A stretch of DNA of 22,543 nucleotides from a virus, in the IMG/VR virus record IMGVR_UViG_3300025120_000615, positions 1-22,543 of that record. One strand, 5' to 3'. Below, in pieces: positions 2,221 through 22,543 of this stretch; position 1 is the stretch's first letter; every line of letters begins with the position of its first letter. The notes beneath the pieces were generated by a model. That model did not search any database, was not told the origin of the DNA, and saw only the letters and a program-made list of their open reading frames with translations. Made by a program: the position numbers and the translations under genes.

Positions 2221-3591
2221 TTATTTTTCTAATTCAAAAAACTTTTTTCTTAGTAACTGTTTATCAAAAGAATCAACATCTGTGTCAAATTTGTTAGATT
2301 TAGCACTAGGAGCTAATTTTTCAATTTCTTCACTGTCATTGTAATCAAATACTTCAAAATGTCCAGTTGAAGTATCTGCATTAACAGAAAAAGTAAGACC
2401 ATCCATCCCATACCTATTTTTCATAATATGAAATCTACCTGTATTATTAACTTTATCTTCTTTTTTACGTGAAAGGGACATTGCAAAATCAGAAATCATC
2501 ATTTTATCATAACTTCCTGCTGCCTTATCTCCTTCAATTATTTTATCTTGGGCACCCGCACGATTTACTTGTGAAACGGACCAAATAGGAATATCTAATT
2601 GTCGTGCAAGCCCCTTTGTGCTAGTATAAATATCATCTATTTCATCTTTACGCTCACGATTTTTTCTTCTTGACGAAAGTAAATCAACATAATCTATTAT
2701 TATCATATCAGGTTTTATTCCCATTCCTGAGCATTTGTTAATATGAGACTCAATAGTTGAAATTGTTGCTCTACCTGTTGGAAATTCTTTAATAACTAGT
2801 TGACCTGGCAATTGTGGAATAATTTCTTCTACTTTATTTCTAAATGAATCTATTTTATTTACTGGTATTTTTGTAAAGAAAGCATCATATCTTTTACCAA
2901 CATAATCTTCTCCTAATTCAAGAGTATAATGTAAAACATTATATCCTAATCTAACAGCATGTCCTCCTAAGGATACAAGAGACCATGACTTACCACCTCC
3001 AGGATTACCAAAAATAAGACCAAAGTCTCCATTTCCTAAACCCTTTTGGAGTAAACCATTTATACGTTCCCAAGGAGTTGGAACTGTTTCTCTGGAGTTT
3101 TCTCTGTAACGACTTTCTATATCTTTATTGTACTCATGTCCTAAATTTTTATCTTCTCCTGCTTTTAAAGCATTATCTATTAAAAAACGAATACCATCAA
3201 AATCTCCTCCTTTAAGTAAATCAACAGAAGACATTAATGCTTTTTTTAATTGTTGGTTTCTACAAAAATTAGTAAATTCTTCTTGAACATATTCTAAATC
3301 TTCATCTGATGTTACATAAGCTTCTTTTAGTTGTTCTTTTATAGAAATTTGTAATACATCATTATCTACTTTTTGTAATAAAACCTTTAAAATGTCTAAT
3401 GAGGGAGTAGTATGGTACTTATCATAATAATTTAATATTTCTTTTATAGCCCACTTTTGAGCAGGATTTTCAAAATATTCAGGAGAAATTATATCATGAA
3501 TGTTAATTAAAAATTCTTTATGTGTAAGTAAAGAAGATAAAATTTTTATCTGAAACTCGTGACCGTACTGATTTATTGTGTTTAGTGTCAA
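2221..3591 (-). CDS. Replicative DNA helicase, DnaB/T4 gp41 family, TTG start
   Basis: Hexameric 5'-3' helicase of the RecA-fold DnaB superfamily that unwinds the fork. It has 456 residues, close to T4 gp41. The N-terminal about 150 residues form the helical domain. The RecA domain carries Walker A GNPGGGKS at 195-202, followed by the LHYTLELGEDYVGKR segment, and Walker B DMIIIDY ending at D300. The DnaB-type VSQVNRAG motif (sensor/Q loop) and the SRKKEDKVNNTGRFHIMKNR region follow. The start is a TTG: the reading frame has a TAA immediately upstream, and the next in-frame ATG is about residue 120, inside the protein. The TTG shares 4 nt (TTGA) with the RNase H stop codon, which points to translational coupling. 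It lies between the RNase H and nrdB genes in the replication operon. Confidence 0.93.
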   Translation of the reverse strand: MTLNTINQYGHEFQIKILSSLLTHKEFLINIHDIISPEYFENPAQKWAIKEILNYYDKYHTTPSLDILKVLLQKVDNDVLQISIKEQLKEAYVTSDEDLEYVQEEFTNFCRNQQLKKALMSSVDLLKGGDFDGIRFLIDNALKAGEDKNLGHEYNKDIESRYRENSRETVPTPWERINGLLQKGLGNGDFGLIFGNPGGGKSWSLVSLGGHAVRLGYNVLHYTLELGEDYVGKRYDAFFTKIPVNKIDSFRNKVEEIIPQLPGQLVIKEFPTGRATISTIESHINKCSGMGIKPDMIIIDYVDLLSSRRKNRERKDEIDDIYTSTKGLARQLDIPIWSVSQVNRAGAQDKIIEGDKAAGSYDKMMISDFAMSLSRKKEDKVNNTGRFHIMKNRYGMDGLTFSVNADTSTGHFEVFDYNDSEEIEKLAPSAKSNKFDTDVDSFDKQLLRKKFFELEK

Positions 3592-8979: not shown

Positions 8980-11900
8980 TTAACTAGGTGTTCCATTAAC
9001 TGGATTTCCTAAAGTAACATCAAAGGTATAATTTAATGTAGTTGGGTCAATATAATATTCTTTTCCATTTTTTATAACTTTTAATTGGAAATGAATATGA
9101 TCTTTTACTTTATCAGAATAATCTAAAGATAAATCTTGGTACTCCCCAACAGGATCTCCTAAGGTTATTGCTTGACCTGATGTAATATTAGGGATAATAT
9201 AAAATATATAAGCTATATATCCTGTATATTTTCCTGTACCCTCTATTCTAACCCCACTTGTTTTAGAAGCATTTGTAGCTTTAGTTATATAAACATTTCC
9301 TGAAATGGGGGCAAAAAATGTATTATAATTTACGGTGCCATTATATGCTCCTCTAGTTAATAAATCTAACCCATTATGTAATTTACCACCTTCTCTATTA
9401 GCTCCATATTTTCCTGCACCTTCTATATCATTTCTTATAACATTTGAAAGATTATCTCCCGTAATTCTATCATTAATTGGAGAATAAAATATTAAATTTG
9501 ATGTATCTTCTATAGTAGATAACCCTTCAACCTCTGTTTTATTAATAATTGGAATTTTTTGAACTTTAGGTACAGATATAGTTTCTAATTTAGTTATCCA
9601 TTTATTATCTTTTATTTCATGGTTTACTTGTTTAACTAAAAATTCTAATGTATTTGGGTAATTTGAAGGTAAAAAATTTATATCAACTTTTAATTTTTGA
9701 TATACTTTTATACCAGATAACCCATCTAATTCTAATTGTAAGTTAATAGGTATAAACCCTATAGTTCCTGTAGTATATTCTTTATTTTTATTTTTTAAAT
9801 CTGAAAAGTATCCTTTAAATGCGGTAAATCCTCTTTGAATAATTTCATCATTATATTTGAAATACTCTCCTAATTCTGTTATATTTCCAGGGATACGTTT
9901 TTCTCCTTTAAAATTCTTTCCTAAAATATAAGGTAAATAATAATCTCTATAATTTGAAATTTGAAGTTGTTCTTTTGATTCAGTTATTGTTACTTTATCA
10001 AAAGATGAGGTACCGACTGTTAGTGTAGGATCAATAATAGAAGAGTTATTTGAAACATTAGATTCTTCTGATGATTTAAAATCTGGGTTGAGTTTCGAAG
10101 GTGGGGGGTTAGATGCTAATACTTTAAATTTATCAGTTAATCCTTTATTCCATTTAGTAAAAGAAGTTGCATCCTCCCCTACTACATTACCATTAGCTGT
10201 GGCACCTATAGTAATAGTGTTTGCTAAATCAGGTGATATTTCTGTAGTAAATGAGTAGGATTTTATAAAATTTGAAGTTGGGGTTTCTTTTGAAGTTAAG
10301 TTATAACCATAAATGTTAAAGGGTATTGACGGTTCTTCAATTTCTTCAATTTGTTCTAAGTTGTTATTAAATTTTGCTACTTCAGAATCTTGTGACCCAA
10401 CTTTGGATATTGTTGATGAGATAAATTTTCTTAATTCATCTCTACCTGCAAATTGGGTTTGATCAATTATAGTTAAAATATTTGTTTCATCATCTATTAT
10501 AGGTTCTAAATTATTTACACTTCCTAAGGATTTATTTATACCATCACATATAGATTTTATAAAATTAAATAAACTTAAATCACCTTTTTTATCTAAATTA
10601 GTTTCTAAAATTTTTTCAATAAAATTAAAGCTTAAGTAAATATTCATTAACTTTCCATGAGGGACAGGGTTTTGGACTGAAAATGGGAGAAGTGATCCTA
10701 ATAAAGGATTATTTTGTGTTATAGGAGGGTCAAAAAAATTAGTATTTGTTACACAAATTCTAGGATCTATTGAAATTTGATTTGGAAAAATAGCCATTAC
10801 ATTCCCAAAAGAATTAGTATTAATATCTACTATAGGATAAGGTTTACTATCTTTACCTTTATACTGAGTAAGAATGTGATCTTTTATAAAATCTAATAAA
10901 GCACCAAATCTTACATAATATCCTATTTTTGCAACATTTACATTTGTTAATGAACTTATATCTGTTGATCCAAAAAAATTATTGAATGTATTTTTAAGGA
11001 GTTGGATTCTATCTGCATTAGTTATATTTTCTGATGTAGCTTGTTGGTTTGCTGAGGGGTTTAATATATACTTAAAATCTGGGTCATTATTTTGAAATCT
11101 TCCAATTTCTATTCTTTTTTTATATAAAAGTAAACTTATTTGGTCTTTATTTGCTTCATCTTCAGTTAAAAGATTATTATCGGGATTAGGTAAGGTATTA
11201 ATTTTAAAAGATTCAACTACATCTCCTAAACTTATTAGTTGGATTGTTATATCATAGGACCCATCATTATTGTAACTCCAATTAAAATTAGTAACTTTTC
11301 CAAACATAGCATCATAGTTACTATCATATTTTTTTCTATATTTTTCAATTTCTTCACTCATTTCAAGAGGGCTTGCTCCTTTAGATTGGAACCAAAATTG
11401 TTCTGTTAGAGTAGCTCCTACAGTTGTAATATCTCCAATATTAATCTTTTTATTAGGATTATCTCCGTCACTTTCTATGTAATGGCTATTTCCCCATTCA
11501 ACTAACATACTAAATCCTAATCTTAGGTAAAGTAAATCTATAAGCTCAAATTGAAATTTATTATACGCCTTTAAAGTTATTGTAGCTTTTTTTATAGAAC
11601 CACGATTAACATGGTTTATTTCTACTCCAGTTATTCCAGGCATTGGTTGAAAACCAAAATCTAACCCTCCTAATCCATAGGCTTTATTACTATTCCAAAT
11701 AGAATTATTTTTAGAATAACCTGATCTTTCTTGCCATTTGTTAAATTTATCTGCTATGGTAGGGTCTTCATTTATAGGTTTTCCATCAGCGTCTTCATTA
11801 ATTTTAGGGCTTAAGTTTGCTTGTTGTAACCCATTAAATAATATAGAACTTGAAGCAAGTTTATACCCTAAAAAATTTTCTGGATTTTCAATACCAAGTA

Positions 11901-12156
11901 ATTTTAATCTATTAAGTCCTTCTTCACCTGAAGTCCCGGTAATAATTGCCTGTTCTATATTAGCTCTTTCTCCATCACGTGGGGGATTTATTAATACAGA
12001 AGAAGCCATTTTAACCCAAGATAATTTTGAATTTAAATAATTTATATGCTGTTGATCTCTTAAAGAATTAAAACCACTTCCATAAACTTCTTGGCGAGTT
12101 TTAATTTGATCATTTACATATTTTTTAAATGGTTCCCCTACTACATTTCCTACCAT
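8980..12156 (-). CDS. Baseplate hub/spike protein with C-terminal M23 endopeptidase-like domain
   Basis: Large (1058 residues) tail-tip protein. The N-terminal and middle parts show features of a contractile-tail hub: QPMPGITGVEINHVNRGSIKKATITLKAYN followed by FELIDLLYLRLGFSMLVEWGN, then FGKVTNFNWSYNNDGSYDITIQLIS, and near 830-890 a hub-like beta segment (VDINFLPSNYPNTLEFLVKQVNHEIK). The C-terminal about 170 residues resemble an M23/LytM metallopeptidase: H927-x3-D931 (HNGLD) and H1020-x-H1022 (HIHF) supply the two zinc motifs, with GxxVxxGxxxG-like ITSGQAITLGDPVG between. The position of the conserved YxH histidine reads YIFY (F985), so one catalytic histidine seems missing. The inferred role is local peptidoglycan opening during injection, a gp5/gp27-type job done with a peptidase instead of a lysozyme. 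It follows the LysM gene by 2 nt. Confidence 0.8.
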   Translation of the reverse strand: MVGNVVGEPFKKYVNDQIKTRQEVYGSGFNSLRDQQHINYLNSKLSWVKMASSVLINPPRDGERANIEQAIITGTSGEEGLNRLKLLGIENPENFLGYKLASSSILFNGLQQANLSPKINEDADGKPINEDPTIADKFNKWQERSGYSKNNSIWNSNKAYGLGGLDFGFQPMPGITGVEINHVNRGSIKKATITLKAYNKFQFELIDLLYLRLGFSMLVEWGNSHYIESDGDNPNKKINIGDITTVGATLTEQFWFQSKGASPLEMSEEIEKYRKKYDSNYDAMFGKVTNFNWSYNNDGSYDITIQLISLGDVVESFKINTLPNPDNNLLTEDEANKDQISLLLYKKRIEIGRFQNNDPDFKYILNPSANQQATSENITNADRIQLLKNTFNNFFGSTDISSLTNVNVAKIGYYVRFGALLDFIKDHILTQYKGKDSKPYPIVDINTNSFGNVMAIFPNQISIDPRICVTNTNFFDPPITQNNPLLGSLLPFSVQNPVPHGKLMNIYLSFNFIEKILETNLDKKGDLSLFNFIKSICDGINKSLGSVNNLEPIIDDETNILTIIDQTQFAGRDELRKFISSTISKVGSQDSEVAKFNNNLEQIEEIEEPSIPFNIYGYNLTSKETPTSNFIKSYSFTTEISPDLANTITIGATANGNVVGEDATSFTKWNKGLTDKFKVLASNPPPSKLNPDFKSSEESNVSNNSSIIDPTLTVGTSSFDKVTITESKEQLQISNYRDYYLPYILGKNFKGEKRIPGNITELGEYFKYNDEIIQRGFTAFKGYFSDLKNKNKEYTTGTIGFIPINLQLELDGLSGIKVYQKLKVDINFLPSNYPNTLEFLVKQVNHEIKDNKWITKLETISVPKVQKIPIINKTEVEGLSTIEDTSNLIFYSPINDRITGDNLSNVIRNDIEGAGKYGANREGGKLHNGLDLLTRGAYNGTVNYNTFFAPISGNVYITKATNASKTSGVRIEGTGKYTGYIAYIFYIIPNITSGQAITLGDPVGEYQDLSLDYSDKVKDHIHFQLKVIKNGKEYYIDPTTLNYTFDVTLGNPVNGTPS

Positions 12157-14703: not shown

Positions 14704-16680
14704 TTATTGAACTTGGTAAGTACCCATAGCAAATGCTGTACCTGCCTTAGTTGAATCTATACTAACTGTACCTTGTTTTGTTAATATTCTTTCTAATAAT
14801 TGATTGGTACGTTTACTTTCGTTATTTCCTCCACCTAAATTCGTTCCTGCTACTATCGTATCTTGGTTATTTAATGCTATTGAACCTTTAGGGGTTGATA
14901 ATATTCTATTCCCATAACCTGAGGATATCATATCATCAGCAGTTGCATTTTTAGTTTTGTTTACTTGACTTAACAATAACCCTGCCCCTGCAAGAGCAAC
15001 TAATGGACCTGCTATAGGACCTAAAGCAAAACTTGATTGAAATATTGAACCTATAGCGGTAACTAAAGACTTAGTAGCAAGTCCTCCTAAAATACCTGAT
15101 ATAGTCATTAAAATCGCTGGGGAGGCTGCTAAGTATCCTACAAAACTAGCTACTGCATCTAAAATAGGGGTAAATACTATTCCTATATCTCCTACAATAC
15201 CTTGAATTTTTGTTAAAACAGAAGCAAATTTTTCACTCGCAGATTGAGATTGTAATTGTTGGTAAGTAACATCACCATATGTGTCTTTGAATTGTTCTGC
15301 GGAAAGATTATTATAATCTTGTTGTAGTGCTATTTTTGCTAATTCTTCTCTACTTAAACCAATAGCTTTAGCTGCTGCTTCTTGTTGGATTCTATTTCCT
15401 GTTGCAAAGGCATTTATTATTTCTTCATTATCAGCTAATTCTGAGGATAAACCTGCTAAATCATTATTTAAAGCTAATAGTCTTGCTTTTTCTAAATTAA
15501 TATCTTTACCAATTAATAATTCAGCTTCTAATTCGTTTTGGATAGATTCTTCAAAGTTTAATAAACTTGAAGCAATTCCATCTACTGTTTCTAAATTAGC
15601 ACCAAATAATTTTGCTTGTACCGCTGCTTTAGCCAATTCCTCTGGGTTTTTTCCTAATGAAACTGTTATAGCTGCACTTGTGTTACTAATTTCTTCTAAA
15701 ATACCTTTAACATTAACGGCAACACCACTTTGTTTTACTAAAGCTCCTACAGTATTTACTGTATTATCTAAAACACCTTCTGTATCTTCACTTTGTAATC
15801 TAGATAATAAAGATAAAGTTCCAGCTTGTTCTGCGGATAACCCTAATTGTTTTGTTAAAGTAGATTGGGTAACTAATGTTTGACCTCCAAAATCTGCTAT
15901 TAACCCTGTTTGTTTTGAAAGTTCTAAAAAAGCCTCATTTAATCCCTTACTATTGATAAATAATTTTTCACTACTAGCAGCTGTAATAGCAAAATTAGAT
16001 TGTAAGTCTCGAGCTGCTGTTGCTGATATTCCTGTATTTTTTGCTACATTAGCTATATTTTGACTAGCTTCAAATGTTCCTTTAACTAAAAGTAAGAAAG
16101 AAGCTTGAGCTAATCTAGTAAGAGTAAGTACTTCTTTAAAATTAGAAGAAAGTAATTTTGAAAGGGTACCAGATTTATCAAATTGGTCTGCTAACTCTCC
16201 TAAATTATTTGAAGCTAATCCAAATAAATCTGTTTGTTTTTGGGCTTCGTCATTTATTCCTTGTATAGCATTTAAATTATCAATTTGAGTATTAAATCCT
16301 TCTTTTAATGTTACTACTGATTCATCTTCAATCTTTCCTCCTATTCTTTTAATAACATTAGCTTTCCTTAAAATAGTATCCCTTTCTTTTTCTATTTTAG
16401 AAATTTCCTTTTCAATGTTTCTAGATACATTTTTTCCCTTTTCAATTTCATTTAATAGTGTTTCCTGTTTATCTAAGGATTTATTTGACCTATTAATAGC
16501 TTTAGTTAAGTCATTTCCTAAAGAATCTACAATTCCTTGTGATTCTTTTGAAAGATTACTTAAATTATTACCAATATCTCTTTGAAGACTTTGTCCAATA
16601 CTTTTAAAAGTATCATCTAATAATTGAAATTCTTCTCTTAAAGCAGCAGTTTGTTTTTTTAATTCCTCAGGCGTAGCCAT
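14704..16680 (-). CDS. Tail tape-measure protein (T4 gp29 position)
   Basis: It has 658 residues against 590 for T4 gp29. The N-terminal third is coiled coil (LREEFQLLDDTFKSIGQSLQ, then DKQETLLNEIEKGKNVSRNIEKEISKIEKERD), followed by long Ala/Leu-rich helical repeats. Residues about 490-573 are strongly hydrophobic with several membrane-like helices (FTPILDAVASFVGYLAASPAIL, ISGILGGLATKSLVTAIGSIF, GPIAGPLVALAGAGLLL), typical of tape measures that help the genome cross the inner membrane. The C-terminal part is polar (STPKGSIALNNQDTIVAG). It lies directly after the gp26-like/overlapping chaperone pair, the canonical place. If the usual rule of about 1.5 Å per residue holds, the tail would be near 100 nm. 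A late-promoter-like motif lies 14 nt before the ATG. Confidence 0.85.
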   Translation of the reverse strand: MATPEELKKQTAALREEFQLLDDTFKSIGQSLQRDIGNNLSNLSKESQGIVDSLGNDLTKAINRSNKSLDKQETLLNEIEKGKNVSRNIEKEISKIEKERDTILRKANVIKRIGGKIEDESVVTLKEGFNTQIDNLNAIQGINDEAQKQTDLFGLASNNLGELADQFDKSGTLSKLLSSNFKEVLTLTRLAQASFLLLVKGTFEASQNIANVAKNTGISATAARDLQSNFAITAASSEKLFINSKGLNEAFLELSKQTGLIADFGGQTLVTQSTLTKQLGLSAEQAGTLSLLSRLQSEDTEGVLDNTVNTVGALVKQSGVAVNVKGILEEISNTSAAITVSLGKNPEELAKAAVQAKLFGANLETVDGIASSLLNFEESIQNELEAELLIGKDINLEKARLLALNNDLAGLSSELADNEEIINAFATGNRIQQEAAAKAIGLSREELAKIALQQDYNNLSAEQFKDTYGDVTYQQLQSQSASEKFASVLTKIQGIVGDIGIVFTPILDAVASFVGYLAASPAILMTISGILGGLATKSLVTAIGSIFQSSFALGPIAGPLVALAGAGLLLSQVNKTKNATADDMISSGYGNRILSTPKGSIALNNQDTIVAGTNLGGGNNESKRTNQLLERILTKQGTVSIDSTKAGTAFAMGTYQVQ

Positions 16681-16718: not shown

Positions 16719-17042
16719 TTATTTATAATTAGATTTTTTTTGGAATTTTGGGGGTGATAATTTACCAGATGAATCTATTAATGTCTGTTGGTTTTTTCCT
16801 TTTTTAGAATCTTCAATAGATTTTTTTTCTGCTTCATAATGATCTTTTATTAATTTAAAGGTATATTTACGAAGCCATAAAGGCATATTATAAACAGTAT
16901 TCCAATCGTATCCTCCTTTTCCGTAGAATACTATTTGGTGAATTTGATCAAAAACAGATTTTCTAAACTCAGAAGATGTTTTAGATGTCAGGCCAAAAAA
17001 AGTTAAGTCCAATGGGAATGTTAGTTGGTTCTCCCCCTCCAT
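16719..17042 (-). CDS. gp51-position ORF overlapping gp26-like gene; possible frameshift extension (tail chaperone)
   Basis: A 107-residue ORF from the ATG at 17042 in the +1 frame relative to the gp26-like gene, overlapping its last 62 nt. The product has a folded-looking centre (SEFRKSVFDQIHQIVFYGKGGYDWNTVYNMPLWLRKYTFKLIKDHYEAEKKSIEDS) and a basic disordered tail (GKNQQTLIDSSGKLSPPKFQKKSNYK). The WNTVYNMPLWLRKYTFKLI element resembles helical segments of tail-chaperone T domains and of small gene products next to the tape measure. The ATG has no Shine-Dalgarno. The frame is open back to 17054, and both T7 slippery runs (17047-17053, 16995-17001) fall inside the shared window, so it may be made as a gp26-fusion by +1 (or -2) frameshifting, independently from its ATG, or both. 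T4 places gene 51 directly after gene 26. The family call is by position. Confidence 0.7.
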   Translation of the reverse strand: MEGENQLTFPLDLTFFGLTSKTSSEFRKSVFDQIHQIVFYGKGGYDWNTVYNMPLWLRKYTFKLIKDHYEAEKKSIEDSKKGKNQQTLIDSSGKLSPPKFQKKSNYK

Positions 17043-17709
17043 CGGGAAAAAAAGTCAGATCTATGTCTGGCTGTATTTGTGAAATATATTCTCTGAGCGC
17101 CCTAGCATCTCGTGCTAGGAGGAAATTATCTACAAAATTTCGAATATCTTTTTTTTCACTATTCCCATCAATAGATAAAATCATGTATTTTAACCTTGTG
17201 GTTGCTTCTGGAGAGTTATTTTTTGAGATTCTTTTTAATCCTTTAAGTTCGTTTTGGATTTTTATTTCATCCCCATGAGTTAAAAGTTTAAATGTTATAT
17301 TATGATCTGTATTAGGTAAATCAAAATTAAATTCATTTAATCCTTTACTATAAAGAGATTCATCTAATACTTTATCTTCTAAAGTAGTTAAATCAATTGT
17401 TTCTTGTCTTCTATTATGAGTAAAAGTATAATCTTTACCATATCCTAAAATTCTAGAAGCAACTAATAAAGCATTTTTATCACCAATTAATAAATCACTA
17501 TAATTAATTTTAGATACAATTAATGATTGTAATAATTTATCAATTACAGTACCATTTTGAATGTAAGATTGATTAGTTAATATATCCTCTTCTTTAGCAG
17601 TCATATATTTCATTTCGATTTTACCACTAGAAAGTGGATTATCTTCAGAATACAATATTCCTTTTGAGGGTAAGTCTACTGTTTCAGTAGGTAATTTAAA
17701 TTCGGCCAT
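16981..17709 (-). CDS. Baseplate hub assembly protein / tail chaperone, T4 gp26-like
   Basis: It has 242 residues (T4 gp26: 208). The N-terminus has the family signature: LPTETVDLPSKGILYSEDNPLSSGKIEMKYMTAKEEDILTNQSYIQNGTVIDKLLQSLIV, then NALLVASRILGYGKDYTF. The C-terminus ends IPIGLNFFWPDI, matching the FFWP ending of gp26-like proteins. The usual Cys pair of the zinc-like segment is absent (HNRRQETIDL in place of a CPxC-type motif). It lies after the tail tube and before the tape measure, the position of tail chaperones in long-tailed phages. The last 74 nt carry two T7 slippery runs and are also open in the +1 frame (see the overlapping ORF). An intrinsic terminator and a late-promoter-like motif upstream of the start indicate its own transcription unit. 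A 7-bp hairpin (17101-17119) lies in the coding sequence. Confidence 0.85.
   Translation of the reverse strand: MAEFKLPTETVDLPSKGILYSEDNPLSSGKIEMKYMTAKEEDILTNQSYIQNGTVIDKLLQSLIVSKINYSDLLIGDKNALLVASRILGYGKDYTFTHNRRQETIDLTTLEDKVLDESLYSKGLNEFNFDLPNTDHNITFKLLTHGDEIKIQNELKGLKRISKNNSPEATTRLKYMILSIDGNSEKKDIRNFVDNFLLARDARALREYISQIQPDIDLTFFPDGGGEPTNIPIGLNFFWPDI
16995..17001 (-). other. Candidate slippery site 2 in gp26-like/gp51-position overlap
   Basis: The coding strand is AAC TTT TTT TGG in the gp26 frame. A +1 slip on Phe-TTT gives FFG followed by the downstream ORF instead of FFWPDI-stop. It lies 11 nt before the gp26-like stop codon. Confidence 0.4.
17047..17053 (-). other. Candidate slippery site 1 in gp26-like/gp51-position overlap
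   Basis: The coding strand is ACT TTT TTT CCC in the gp26 frame. A +1 slip moves tRNA-Phe from TTT to TTC, the codon that pairs best with its GAA anticodon. It lies 1 nt after the upstream limit (17054) of the +1 open frame and just before a GGAGGGGGAG purine tract. Confidence 0.4.
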
Positions 17710-17806: not shown

Positions 17807-18295
17807 TTAGAAATTTAATATACAGTAATCTGGTTGTACAGTCATTGTAATTTCTTGAGCGGCATTTTCAGTATCCCAATTGTAATCTCCAAATGAAGCT
17901 TCTGTTATTAATGCACCTTTTACGATCCATTCAGATACTACATCACCTACAGGACCTAATACATTAAATGTTAAGTCTTTTTTATAGAAATCAGAGTAAC
18001 CATCTCTACCAGTTACTGATTCATGATGTAATCTTACCCACTCCATTGTTGCTTGTGCTCCAGAAGGAGTAATTGGATCAAATAAGGTGAATGAAATTGT
18101 ATTCCAAGTTGTTTTACCTTTTACAAAACGTTGAACGTTAATGTGATTTAAGGCTACAGTTCCTTGAGTTAATGATACAGCTCCCATTCCTTTTACAGCA
18201 TATGATGGAATACCATCAATGTATACTATAAACCTATTAGCTTGTTTTGGCTCAAAAGCTGTAAAAAATATTTCGTTTGGATCTAATATTGCCAT
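17807..18295 (-). CDS. Tail tube protein (T4 gp19-like)
   Basis: It has 162 residues (T4 gp19: 163). It polymerises into the inner tail tube around the tape measure. Typical elements are FEPKQANRFIVYIDGIPSYAVKGMG near the N-terminus, the FVKGKTTWNTISFTLFDPITPSGAQATMEWVRLHHESVTGRDGYSDFYKKDLTFNVL core, and the EWIVKGALITEASFGDYNWDTENAAQEITMTVQPDYCIL end, in the order seen in gp19/T4-type tube proteins. It follows the sheath gene (43-nt gap with a late-promoter-like motif) and precedes a strong intrinsic terminator, as expected for a highly expressed structural gene. No Shine-Dalgarno; the leader is A-rich (AAAAACATAAAATGG). Confidence 0.93.
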   Translation of the reverse strand: MAILDPNEIFFTAFEPKQANRFIVYIDGIPSYAVKGMGAVSLTQGTVALNHINVQRFVKGKTTWNTISFTLFDPITPSGAQATMEWVRLHHESVTGRDGYSDFYKKDLTFNVLGPVGDVVSEWIVKGALITEASFGDYNWDTENAAQEITMTVQPDYCILNF

Positions 18296-18338: not shown

Positions 18339-20066
18339 TTATGCTGGGAATGTAGCTCCTGTTGGTAATACGTTAAAGTCTAACATTATGTATTCAGCAG
18401 TTCTAGTTGGTTGAATAAATATTTGACCTATTAATTCATTTCTATCAACTACATCTGGTGTATTGTTAGTATCGTCCATTACTACTTTAAAAGCATACAA
18501 TCCTTGTCTTTGTTGAACTGATTCTAAATAAGGATTAACTTGACTTAAGAAATTATTTCTTGTTGATGCAGAATTTTGTTCAAATACTAAATTATCTGCG
18601 ATTTGAGAAATAAAACTTTTAAGTGAAATTAATAATCTTCTAACATTAATTCTATCTAAAGCACTAGCTCTTTTCTGTAGTGTCTTTTGACCAAATACTA
18701 CTACTCCTGATTGTGGGAAAGTAGCAATTGGGTTAATATTAGCTTCATATAAATCATCTCTATTTCCAGCAGATAATTTTCTTTCAGCTCTTGTTACTTG
18801 ACCTAATCCCCCTCTAGTAATACCAGCGGGTGCAAACCAAGGATCACTTGAAGCATCTGTAAATGCATATACTCCAGGAATCATTGTTGAAGCAGGTACC
18901 CAAACTTGTTCCCCAATATTTGGGTCAATAGTTTGTAACCAAGGCCAATATGTAGCAGCATAACTAGAATCAAATCCAGATGCCTGTGTTATTGCTGAAG
19001 CAATTGCTGTATTGTATTTAACTAAATCAACAACAGAAATTGAATCTCCTCTAGCAATTGTATTATTTACTATACTAGTAATCTGTGTAGAATGTTCTGA
19101 ATTTAATAATCCAGGAACTGCAATTACATTATATTTGTACTCATCAACGTTTGACATTAATGAAATAGCATTAGTATAATCTGTTCCTTCTAATCCTTGT
19201 GAATCTGCACTAGAAATATTATTATAGTAATTAGCAGCTCTTCCTGTTGGAATATTTAAACCTACTGCCCCACTAAAGGAACCTGATCCTACTACTGGTA
19301 GAGATCCTGTAAATTCATTTTTAGCTGTTCCAGTATTATCAAAATATCTAGGAGTATTATAATTTACTTGTTTTACTCTTACAAATCTTGATGCATTAGC
19401 ATAAGATCCACTTTCTTGAATATAATAATCAGAACCATCATTTACTAATGTATGATCTACATCACCAATTACTTTAGATATATAATTTGAAGAATAAGGA
19501 TCTAATGATAAGTTATTATATTGTTCTACTACTATTTTACTATTTGTAGTATCATCTCCTCTACGGATTAATAAACTAAATGTTCCTGAACTAGTATTTA
19601 CACCTGCAATTTCCCATCTAATATTATCAGATGAACCTGATTCTAAAGCACCACCACTTAATAAAGTAGTACCTGTATTCATAATTGCACCTTCTGAAAT
19701 TGTTTCTAAAACAAAAGGAGATAAACCACTAGTAGGGCCTCCTGACCCTGTAGCTATTGTTGAACTTACTGCGGGTGAAAAAGAACCTGATGTTACTCTT
19801 GTTACTAATAATGAATTCCCTCCATTTTGAAAATAATTACTAGCAGCAATTGAATTAAAATATGAATAAAGATTAGATCCACTTTCTACAGATCCTCCAA
19901 AAACTGCTGTGTATTCACTAAATGAACCTACTATTGTAGGAATTTCAACAGGACCTTTTGTAGAAGGACCAATTATAGCCGCACCTCTTTCAACAGGTTG
20001 ACCTTGTATAAAGGATTGATCATTTTCTCTCGCCAATACCCCTGGAGATAATAAAGTTTCTGCCAT
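18339..20066 (-). CDS. Contractile tail sheath protein (T4 gp18-like)
   Basis: It has 575 residues (T4 gp18: 659). It forms the outer contractile sheath around the tube. The N-terminal sheath signature is clear: SPGVLARENDQSFIQGQPVERGAAIIGPSTKGPVEIPTIVGSFSEYTAVFGG, followed by YSYFNSIAASNYFQNGGNSLLVTRV. The variable middle is Ser/Thr/Gly-rich and surface-like. The C-terminal domain carries the conserved handshake region: ITRGGLGQVTRAERKLS, LYEANINPIATFPQSGVVVFGQKTL, RINVRRLLISLKSFISQIADNLVFEQN and DRNELIGQIFIQPTRTAEYIMLDFNVLPTG. It is upstream of the tube gene, the T4 order (18 then 19). The leader holds a late-promoter-like motif 30 nt from the ATG. Confidence 0.96.
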   Translation of the reverse strand: MAETLLSPGVLARENDQSFIQGQPVERGAAIIGPSTKGPVEIPTIVGSFSEYTAVFGGSVESGSNLYSYFNSIAASNYFQNGGNSLLVTRVTSGSFSPAVSSTIATGSGGPTSGLSPFVLETISEGAIMNTGTTLLSGGALESGSSDNIRWEIAGVNTSSGTFSLLIRRGDDTTNSKIVVEQYNNLSLDPYSSNYISKVIGDVDHTLVNDGSDYYIQESGSYANASRFVRVKQVNYNTPRYFDNTGTAKNEFTGSLPVVGSGSFSGAVGLNIPTGRAANYYNNISSADSQGLEGTDYTNAISLMSNVDEYKYNVIAVPGLLNSEHSTQITSIVNNTIARGDSISVVDLVKYNTAIASAITQASGFDSSYAATYWPWLQTIDPNIGEQVWVPASTMIPGVYAFTDASSDPWFAPAGITRGGLGQVTRAERKLSAGNRDDLYEANINPIATFPQSGVVVFGQKTLQKRASALDRINVRRLLISLKSFISQIADNLVFEQNSASTRNNFLSQVNPYLESVQQRQGLYAFKVVMDDTNNTPDVVDRNELIGQIFIQPTRTAEYIMLDFNVLPTGATFPA

Positions 20067-20494: not shown

Positions 20495-22543
20495 TTATTT
20501 ATTTTCTAATATTTTTATTCTAGCTTCTAGTTCTTGTATTGCTTTCATTAAATATATATTCATTCCTGATGGATTAAATTGGTATCTTTTTTCTCCACTT
20601 TCTTCATCTTCAACTAAAGGATATGCTTCTGGAAATTTATCAACTTCATTTTGTGCTATATAACCTTTTTGTTTTTTTTCTGTATTATCTTGATTGTTAA
20701 AATGAAATTCTTTAGGTTGTAAATCTTTAAATTTATCTAAAATATTTTCATTCCAATTAGTTATATTCTTTTTTAATCTTTTATCTGAACTTCCTGAATT
20801 ATAAGAAGTACTAGTTGAAGTTATTACTATTGCACCACATACTGTTGATCCATTATGTCTAAATTGAACTGCAGTATGAGTTCCACTATGACCACCTATT
20901 ATCATACTAACACCAGATTGAGTATTTATATGCACAAAGTTATTAGTTGATGGGTAGGTTGAAGTTGGTGTTCCAAAAAAAACATCGTTACCTTGAAAAC
21001 GCATTTTTATTGCAGAAGAAGTATTTGATACTCCACTTAATATACAAAAATCTCCTGCTGAAACAGTATCTGTTGCTAAAGAATAATCTACACTGCTATT
21101 TTCTCCTGTTCCAAGAGTTAATTGAGGGGTACTTGATTGGCCCGCTGGTCTAAATATTTCAAATTTAGTTCGGGGTTGATCAGTTCCTATTCCTACTTGT
21201 CCATCAGCATCAATAGTCATTCTCCTTTGAATACCAGATGCTCCTGCTGAAGTCCAAAACTCCAATTTACCGTTGTTATTTCCTGATTGTCTAACGGCTC
21301 CTATCATTGCATTTCTTGTACCACCGCTACCAAAAGATATAATACCTAAATTTTGTCCATTAGTATCTGTTGTTGGTGTAAGCAATTCTAAAACACCAGC
21401 ATAACCTGCTGTAGCACCACCCATTATAGTTAACACTTTATAACCATACCCTACTTGGTCAGGAGAACCTGTTCCTATTCCTACGTTTCCATTTATATCT
21501 ATCATCATTTTGCTGTCAGCAATACCAGCACTATTCTGATCAGAAACTGAATCAACTAAAAAATGTAATTCTTGTCTAGCCGCACCATCCCCAATGGATT
21601 TTGCAACAATACCTACTTTTCTATAATATGAATTAGTAGCTTCAGAATAACCTAAACTAATTCCACCAAAAACACCAGAACCAGCATTTGCACCTTGACC
21701 AAAATGAGCATTAAAAGATGAAGCAGTTCCATTTACTTGAAGAGTTGTTTGGGGGGTTGTTATTCCTATTCCTACGTTGCCTCTTGAGAAAAATGAATTA
21801 CCGCCGTATTGTAATGTTAAGTTTGGATCTTGACCTACTTGAGCAAAAAATTGAAAATCAGAGGCACCTTCTGTAAAACGTATTCTACCAAAATTAGTAG
21901 TACCTTCTTGTTGAAAATTTATATCGTAATCTGTAGCATTCGTTGCAGATAACAAAGTTAACGACCTTGACCCAGTCAATGTGCTAGAACCTATAGTAAC
22001 ATTTCCATCAGACGAGATTCGCATTTTTTCTGTAGAACCACCAGTAGCAAACAATATATTAGATTGAGAACGAATTGCAAAATCATCAGTAGTACTACTT
22101 GTTATCATATCTCCTGTAGAAGTAGCAACTTGTAAGCCTGCTTTAAAGACACTTGCATTGTCAAATCTTAATCTTAAATTATCATTATTATCAATATCTA
22201 TTCCATCTCCATTTACCATTATCATTCCTGAAAAAGTTGCGGTTTGATTATCGTCAAGAATTAAAGCATTAACTTGAGTATCTCCATTTCTTTTTGTTAA
22301 AAACCTTAATTTACCACCAGTTCCTGCATCTGTTTCTGAAACTATTGTTGAAAGTATATCGGCTGTAGATGCTTTTTTAAAGTTTAAATATTGGGTTTCT
22401 GCTGATATAGTCACTTCCCCTGCAAAAGTTGCTGAACTTCCATTTATTAATAATTCTTGAGTATTACCAACTCTAAATTCTAAAGCAGTTGAGCTATGTC
22501 CTGTATCTATAATCCCACTTGAATTACCATTACTATATGAAAG
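20495..22543 (-). CDS. Tail fibre with C-terminal S74 self-cleaving chaperone, 5' end beyond window
   Basis: Receptor-binding or side tail fibre. A GTG at 22414 has been taken as its start, but the frame continues without a stop to the window edge, adding 44 residues (ending NGSSATFAGEV) in the same fibre style, so the true start is outside. The visible part is 683 residues. It has recurring beta units ending in a (G)NV(G/T)IG-type step: DGNVTIG, RGNVGIG, NGNVGIG, DGQVGIG, spaced by roughly 75-100 residues. The C-terminus is an S74 intramolecular chaperone: SDKRLKKNI at about 20,790-20,763 with Ser (20786-20788) and Lys five residues on (20771-20773) as the cleavage dyad, then GYIAQNEVDKFPEAYPLV and a terminal coiled-coil helix (IYLMKAIQELEARIKILENK). 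Autocleavage before the Ser would release about 97 residues after trimer folding. Confidence 0.9.
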   Translation of the reverse strand, partial: LSYSNGNSSGIIDTGHSSTALEFRVGNTQELLINGSSATFAGEVTISAETQYLNFKKASTADILSTIVSETDAGTGGKLRFLTKRNGDTQVNALILDDNQTATFSGMIMVNGDGIDIDNNDNLRLRFDNASVFKAGLQVATSTGDMITSSTTDDFAIRSQSNILFATGGSTEKMRISSDGNVTIGSSTLTGSRSLTLLSATNATDYDINFQQEGTTNFGRIRFTEGASDFQFFAQVGQDPNLTLQYGGNSFFSRGNVGIGITTPQTTLQVNGTASSFNAHFGQGANAGSGVFGGISLGYSEATNSYYRKVGIVAKSIGDGAARQELHFLVDSVSDQNSAGIADSKMMIDINGNVGIGTGSPDQVGYGYKVLTIMGGATAGYAGVLELLTPTTDTNGQNLGIISFGSGGTRNAMIGAVRQSGNNNGKLEFWTSAGASGIQRRMTIDADGQVGIGTDQPRTKFEIFRPAGQSSTPQLTLGTGENSSVDYSLATDTVSAGDFCILSGVSNTSSAIKMRFQGNDVFFGTPTSTYPSTNNFVHINTQSGVSMIIGGHSGTHTAVQFRHNGSTVCGAIVITSTSTSYNSGSSDKRLKKNITNWNENILDKFKDLQPKEFHFNNQDNTEKKQKGYIAQNEVDKFPEAYPLVEDEESGEKRYQFNPSGMNIYLMKAIQELEARIKILENK

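Follow-up and report, generated by a model that had tools for sequence, protein, structure and literature searches.

A predicted +1 frameshift site conserved in gp26-like tail assembly chaperone genes, and its relation to T4 gp26 and gp51

The stretch of DNA analysed here, referred to as the window, is the viral record IMGVR_UViG_3300025120_000615 over 22,543 nucleotides. On its minus strand it carries tail genes that include a gp26-like gene, which we call G, and an open frame overlapping the end of G, which encodes a domain that we call T. The features of the locus are as follows.

18339-20066, minus strand: tail sheath protein gene (PHROG 23, E = 2e-72; Pfam sheath domains)
17807-18295, minus strand: tail tube protein gene, gp19-like (PHROG 4542, E = 3e-22)
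16981-17709, minus strand: G, predicted gp26-like short tail assembly chaperone of 242 aa, zero frame, stop codon TAA at 16983-16981
16719-17054, minus strand: open +1 frame overlapping the end of G; its ATG at 17042 is not conserved
17047-17053, minus strand: first T7 run, rejected as the shift site (many relatives lack it or have it interrupted)
17042-16719, minus strand: 107-aa ORF of the program-made ORF list, inside the open +1 frame
17031-17040, minus strand: purine tract GGAGGGGGAG, 30-39 nt upstream of the shift site
16991-17001, minus strand: candidate shift site TTT TTT TGG CC, its T7 run at 17001-16995
16722-16994, minus strand: 91-aa T domain (GLTSKTSS...YK) in the reading that a +1 shift would give, with its stop codon at 16721-16719
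14704-16680, minus strand: tape measure protein gene, 658 aa, matching the immuto tape measure protein

The gene order in the window is sheath, tube, G, T and tape measure, and it is identical in Flavobacterium phage immuto, whose annotated tape measure protein is 43% identical over 365 aa to that of the window (E = 7e-83). This order bears out the position just before the tape measure gene that an earlier sequence-only reading of the window had given to the overlapping pair. Two other ORFs were examined by eye: the end (SDKRLKKNI...) of a large, tail-fibre-like ORF with a GTG start, at 20495-22414, resembles an intramolecular chaperone domain, and the C-terminal part of a 1058-aa ORF in the baseplate region, at 8980-12156, resembles an M23-type peptidase domain (HNGLDL...).

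The overlap itself, proposed in the same reading, is real: the frames of G and of the 107-aa ORF are both open over the 74 nt from 17054 to 16981, the last stop codon in the ORF frame lying at 17057-17055. Relative to G the ORF is in the +1 frame, and the 3' end of G reads AAC TTT TTT TGG CCT GAC ATC TAA. Both of the T7 runs claimed for the overlap are present, at 17053-17047 and 17001-16995, and each is phased as TTT TTT in the G frame. As signals they differ, since the second run is conserved and the first is not; some relatives moreover have a stop codon in the +1 frame after the first run, which puts that run out of reach, and it was rejected as the shift site. T7 runs as such are unremarkable in this AT-rich window (34 observed, 52 expected), and the string TTTTTTTGGCC is unique in it (1 observed, 0.05 expected). 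What far exceeds chance, from the sequence comparisons, is the conservation in relatives and not the number of T7 runs in the window.

To describe this conservation we used five scans of viral contigs, of 80 loci each. One started from the window G, the others from a mixed alignment, from relatives in phages that infect Gram-positive hosts, from cyanophage syn9 and from the locus L153. One of the search patterns of the first scan, PIGLNFFW, overlaps the site, which biases the 80 loci of that scan in favour of the motif; all other scans used patterns from different parts of G. Frames were counted in the 315 loci in which both G and T were recognised by profile, excluding the cyanophage set. In 303 of them (253 distinct) T is encoded in the +1 frame; 11 have it in the -1 frame, and one has it elsewhere. 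Apparent '+2' frames of T (for example in L300 and L337) were artefacts of choosing the longest ORF or of contig ends, and were corrected by the profile-based assignment. The sequence TTT TTT TGG CC occurs at the same place in 202 of the 253 distinct +1 loci, followed in frequency by TTT TTT TAC CC (17), TTC TTT TGG CC (9) and TTT CTT TGG CC (7), and the remainder carry rarer near variants, including TTT TTT CGT and TTC TTT CGT. The check that the sequence-only reading had suggested, of overlap, frame and T run in related phages, thus finds all three kept.

The position of a shift is narrowly confined by the frames themselves. Among 82 non-redundant loci, which share less than 80% identity, 21 contain none of the start codons ATG, GTG and TTG in the +1 frame from its last stop codon to the site, and in 18 of the 82 the frame opens just 2 nt (seven loci) or 8 nt (eleven loci) upstream of the T run, while the G stop codon usually follows 18 nt after the start of the run. 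In those 18 loci a switch of frame is therefore restricted to about 20-26 nt that hold the T run, and because many loci have no start in the +1 frame, which is closed until 2-8 nt before the run, a shift must occur at the run. The T frame is also constrained as protein: between the G stop codon and the first conserved internal ATG, pN/pS is 0.265 in the T frame, as compared with 1.1 and 1.4 in the other two, and T is conserved across 49 aligned relatives. We conclude that T is under purifying selection and that translation in all probability covers it from near its start. Coding in two frames at once accounts for part of the base conservation at CCT GAC. The codon before the T run (17004-17002 in the window) avoids a final T, being AAC in 30 cases and AAT in 1, AGC in 8 and AGT in none; elsewhere T-ending codons dominate, and the share of AAC is only 26%.

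Some relatives have changed the arrangement. In nine contigs (L153, site at 3239-3250; L369-L374; L376; L377) T is in the -1 frame, the T7 run is gone, and all nine keep A AAT TTC TT(C/T) TGG CC, in which A_AAT_TTC is a textbook heptamer of the X_XXY_YYZ type. In a maximum-likelihood tree of G, the seven members sampled from this clade form one group with 100/100 support, lying inside the +1 group, which indicates that a clade nested in the +1 group switched to a predicted -1 shift at the A_AAT_TTC heptamer. In another relative (L045, 3226-4147) a gene resembling a GIY-YIG homing endonuclease (TGIYKITSPTSKVYIGQSIDIHQRW..., identified by eye) lies between G and T. There T begins with its own ATG, and the former site has acquired three silent changes (TTC TTT TGG CCC GAT), the G residues FFWPD being unchanged. 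This single case suggests that the T run may serve the shift and not the protein sequence of G.

Cyanophage-type loci are consistently of the -1 kind. All 81 (L204, 2690-2892, and L205-L284) have T_TTT_TTC at the end of G, followed by T in the -1 frame; GAGGG is found slightly upstream in 54 of the 81, GAG accounting for 29% of Glu codons elsewhere, and downstream folding is somewhat stronger. From this arrangement, the cyanophage 'gp51' annotations would represent just the last part of a product of -1 frameshifting. Two further loci, Stenotrophomonas phage RAS14 (L086) and the jumbo phage record LR756511 (L088), likewise have their next ORF in the -1 frame; near the end of G they carry T_TTT_TTT and T_TTT_TTC, respectively.

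The relation of G to the T4 proteins was approached through intermediates and fold, because direct profile comparison of the window-group G with T4 gp26 was not significant. On its own, the window G scores 16.7 bits (E = 0.0059) against PF12322, below the cut-off of 24.5, and matches the PHROG 150 baseplate hub family with E = 3e-8. The G of LR756508 is 38.6% identical to the window G (E = 5e-49) and matches PF12322 above the cut-off (E = 9e-16). The AlphaFold2 model of G (pLDDT 91.6) matches, in BFVD, a T4-like baseplate hub assembly protein (E = 3e-14) and a hub subunit of SP-15 (E = 6e-17, TM-score 0.82), and a T4-type gp26 (Proteus phage phiP4-3) with only E = 1.7e-3. According to this model the window G belongs structurally to the T4-type 'baseplate hub / hub assembly' proteins. 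A fold search of the PDB with the G model gave nothing significant, the HK97 chaperone 2ob9 being matched with E = 2.3 and probability 0.30, and no relative came up when the PDB was searched by sequence. The AlphaFold2 model of T is helical (pLDDT 79.8) and had no significant match in a BFVD fold search.

For T the connection runs through gp51. T4 gp26 and gp51 both match PF12322 and each other (E = 7e-21), gp51 being about 48 residues longer. The -1 fusion of the cyanophages and T4 gp51 match over their full length (E = 5e-17), and the C-terminal extension of gp51 matches the cyanophage T (E = 2.8e-11), which in turn matches the window-group T (E = 1.5e-5); reversed-profile controls gave E values of 0.16 or higher, and the direct match of the window T to the gp51 C-terminus is weak (E = 0.009). 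Genes 26 and 51 of T4 were considered as a frameshift pair and rejected as such, gene 26 being on the opposite strand and the two being paralogues. Because the cyanophage fusion matches gp51 end to end, T4 appears to keep G and GT as separate genes, gp26 and gp51. This reading, drawn from sequence relations, agrees with the short and long tail assembly chaperones that gp26 and gp51 represent according to Vladimirov, Gautam and Davidson (2022, Virology 566:9-15), as that work is cited in PMC10885494, and so it is already published.

The frame relation, the site, the gene order and the family relation together support the proposal of the sequence-only reading that the gp26-like protein and its fusion are the T4-type counterpart of G and GT. 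We regard it as highly probable that the locus encodes a tail assembly chaperone in two forms, G and a +1 G-T fusion made at TTT TTT TGG CC. Most ribosomes would read G to its stop codon and make the protein of 242 aa. A minority would slip one base forward at 16991-17001, the Phe-tRNA in the P-site moving from UUU to the overlapping UUU while UGG is still empty, and would continue in the +1 frame to give a G-T fusion of 329 aa (...NFF/GLTSK..., the stroke marking the junction). By analogy with lambda G/GT and T4 gp26/gp51, many copies of G may bind the tape measure protein, and the few copies of G-T may also recruit the tail tube protein through T and so start tube assembly. We infer the frameshifting itself, its +1 direction, the low efficiency assumed here and the chaperone activity from these comparisons.

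Three other explanations would account for the same overlap. Slippage by -2 on the T run would make the same fusion with one extra Phe, as is known in Mu (PMC5009743), since it reaches the same frame and the T7 run lets tRNA-Phe re-pair two bases back. The two would be distinguished by the tryptic junction peptide, which would end in ...EPTNIPIGLNFFGLTSK after a +1 shift and in ...NFFFGLTSK after a -2 shift. However, in at least 11 distinct loci with TTC TTT TGG/TAC or TTC TTT CGT the -2 movement would put tRNA-Phe on UCU, whereas a +1 movement keeps it on UUU or UUC. The frame relation shared by the two, given as '+1 (or -2)' in the sequence-only reading, stands, and +1 is preferred because -2 is forced into a mismatch at the TTC TTT TGG loci; we consider -2 improbable. 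Slippage of RNA polymerase on the T7 run, with one base less or two more in the transcript, could also yield G-T without ribosomal frameshifting, and a homopolymer at the frame junction of an AT-rich genome is what it would use. It is disfavoured because loci with TTT CTT TGG, TTT CTA TGG and TTC TTT TGG, with runs of only 3-4 T, keep the same frame relation, and because the avoidance of T in the preceding codon (AAC against AAT) means that longer runs are not favoured, and it seems to us very improbable.

The T frame could finally be a separate gene in ordinary overlap, started at the ATG at 17042 or at a TTG at 17012. Such an ATG does exist, close relatives commonly have a TTG 11 nt upstream of the site, and L045 demonstrates that a separate T gene can exist. 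Yet neither start is conserved, many loci lack any start before the site, selection on T extends upstream of the first conserved ATG, and both the near-invariant site and its exchange for a -1 heptamer would be left unexplained, so that we give this explanation very little credence.

The predicted +1 shift appears to do without the usual stimulators. The purine tract GGAGGGGGAG is indeed present between the two T runs, as had been described, but a role as classical Shine-Dalgarno stimulator is ruled out by its distance from the site, which is too large. Shine-Dalgarno-like words occur between -45 and -12 in 36 of the 82 loci, as against 13.4 expected from synonymous resampling, and are thus 2.7 times commoner than expected; in relatives the Shine-Dalgarno-like purine tracts sit 28-33 nt upstream of the shift site. 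The tract is at most accessory. No nearby Shine-Dalgarno stimulator was found at the site, and a search for a downstream pseudoknot or hairpin gave no signal across the +1 group and nothing special in the window.

Comparison with known systems places the locus between several of them. In T4 the two forms, a short one and a long one with a C-terminal extension, correspond to those predicted for the window and belong to the same family through intermediates and by fold, but they come from two genes on opposite strands, whereas the window has one gene and a predicted +1 shift. The Kyanoviridae (cyanophage syn9) resemble the window in having one G gene followed by a T ORF ('gp51-like') that can be reached only by frameshifting, although this is -1 at T_TTT_TTC and the G proteins share low similarity; poly-T -1 sites have already been reported in chaperone genes of T4-like phages (PMC12846349). 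Lambda G/GT (-1), Mu (-2) and HSTV-2 (+1) likewise place a short and a rarer frame-shifted long form before the tape measure gene (PMC5009743), but no sequence similarity of the window proteins to them was seen, and the fold match to HK97 2ob9 is weak and not significant. At the level of the site, CUU_U of RF2 (prfB) and UUU_CGU of influenza PA-X resemble the window group in having YUU in the P-site followed by U or C and re-pairing at +1, and the variants in the group include CTT T and TTT CGT. RF2 has a stop codon in the A-site and a close Shine-Dalgarno sequence, whereas the window site has neither, and the genes are unrelated. In bacteria, +1 shifting at UUU_Y is known to occur with no stop codon present (PMC5009743).

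On balance we favour the view that TTT TTT TGG CC and its near variants are an ancient and widespread +1 route in the gp26/gp51 family outside T4 and the cyanophages, exchanged for -1 in one nested clade and dropped after the homing-endonuclease split, and that it operates with neither a downstream RNA structure nor a nearby Shine-Dalgarno sequence, the upstream purine tract or the nascent peptide perhaps helping. Systems of this kind are known; within the literature covered, which includes Vladimirov 2022 as cited by other papers, the conserved +1 route, its exchange for -1 and its reach are apparently new. Our literature search found no paper joining cyanophage, frameshift and gp51 in this sense.

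Tail chaperone frameshifting has been regarded as general among long-tailed phages, with T4 as the exception. The predicted long chaperone would be missing or truncated in the annotation of named genomes, immuto and Mel-JY01 among them, and probably in that of many others. Lacking the usual stimulators, a strong natural signal of this type (UUU_U, then UGG or UAC) would be useful for studies of +1 frameshifting in bacteria, notably with phages of Bacteroidota. The switch in shift direction can be placed inside one clade, and a single family would thus have taken four routes to the same two products, namely a -1 shift, a +1 shift, gene duplication and a split gene.
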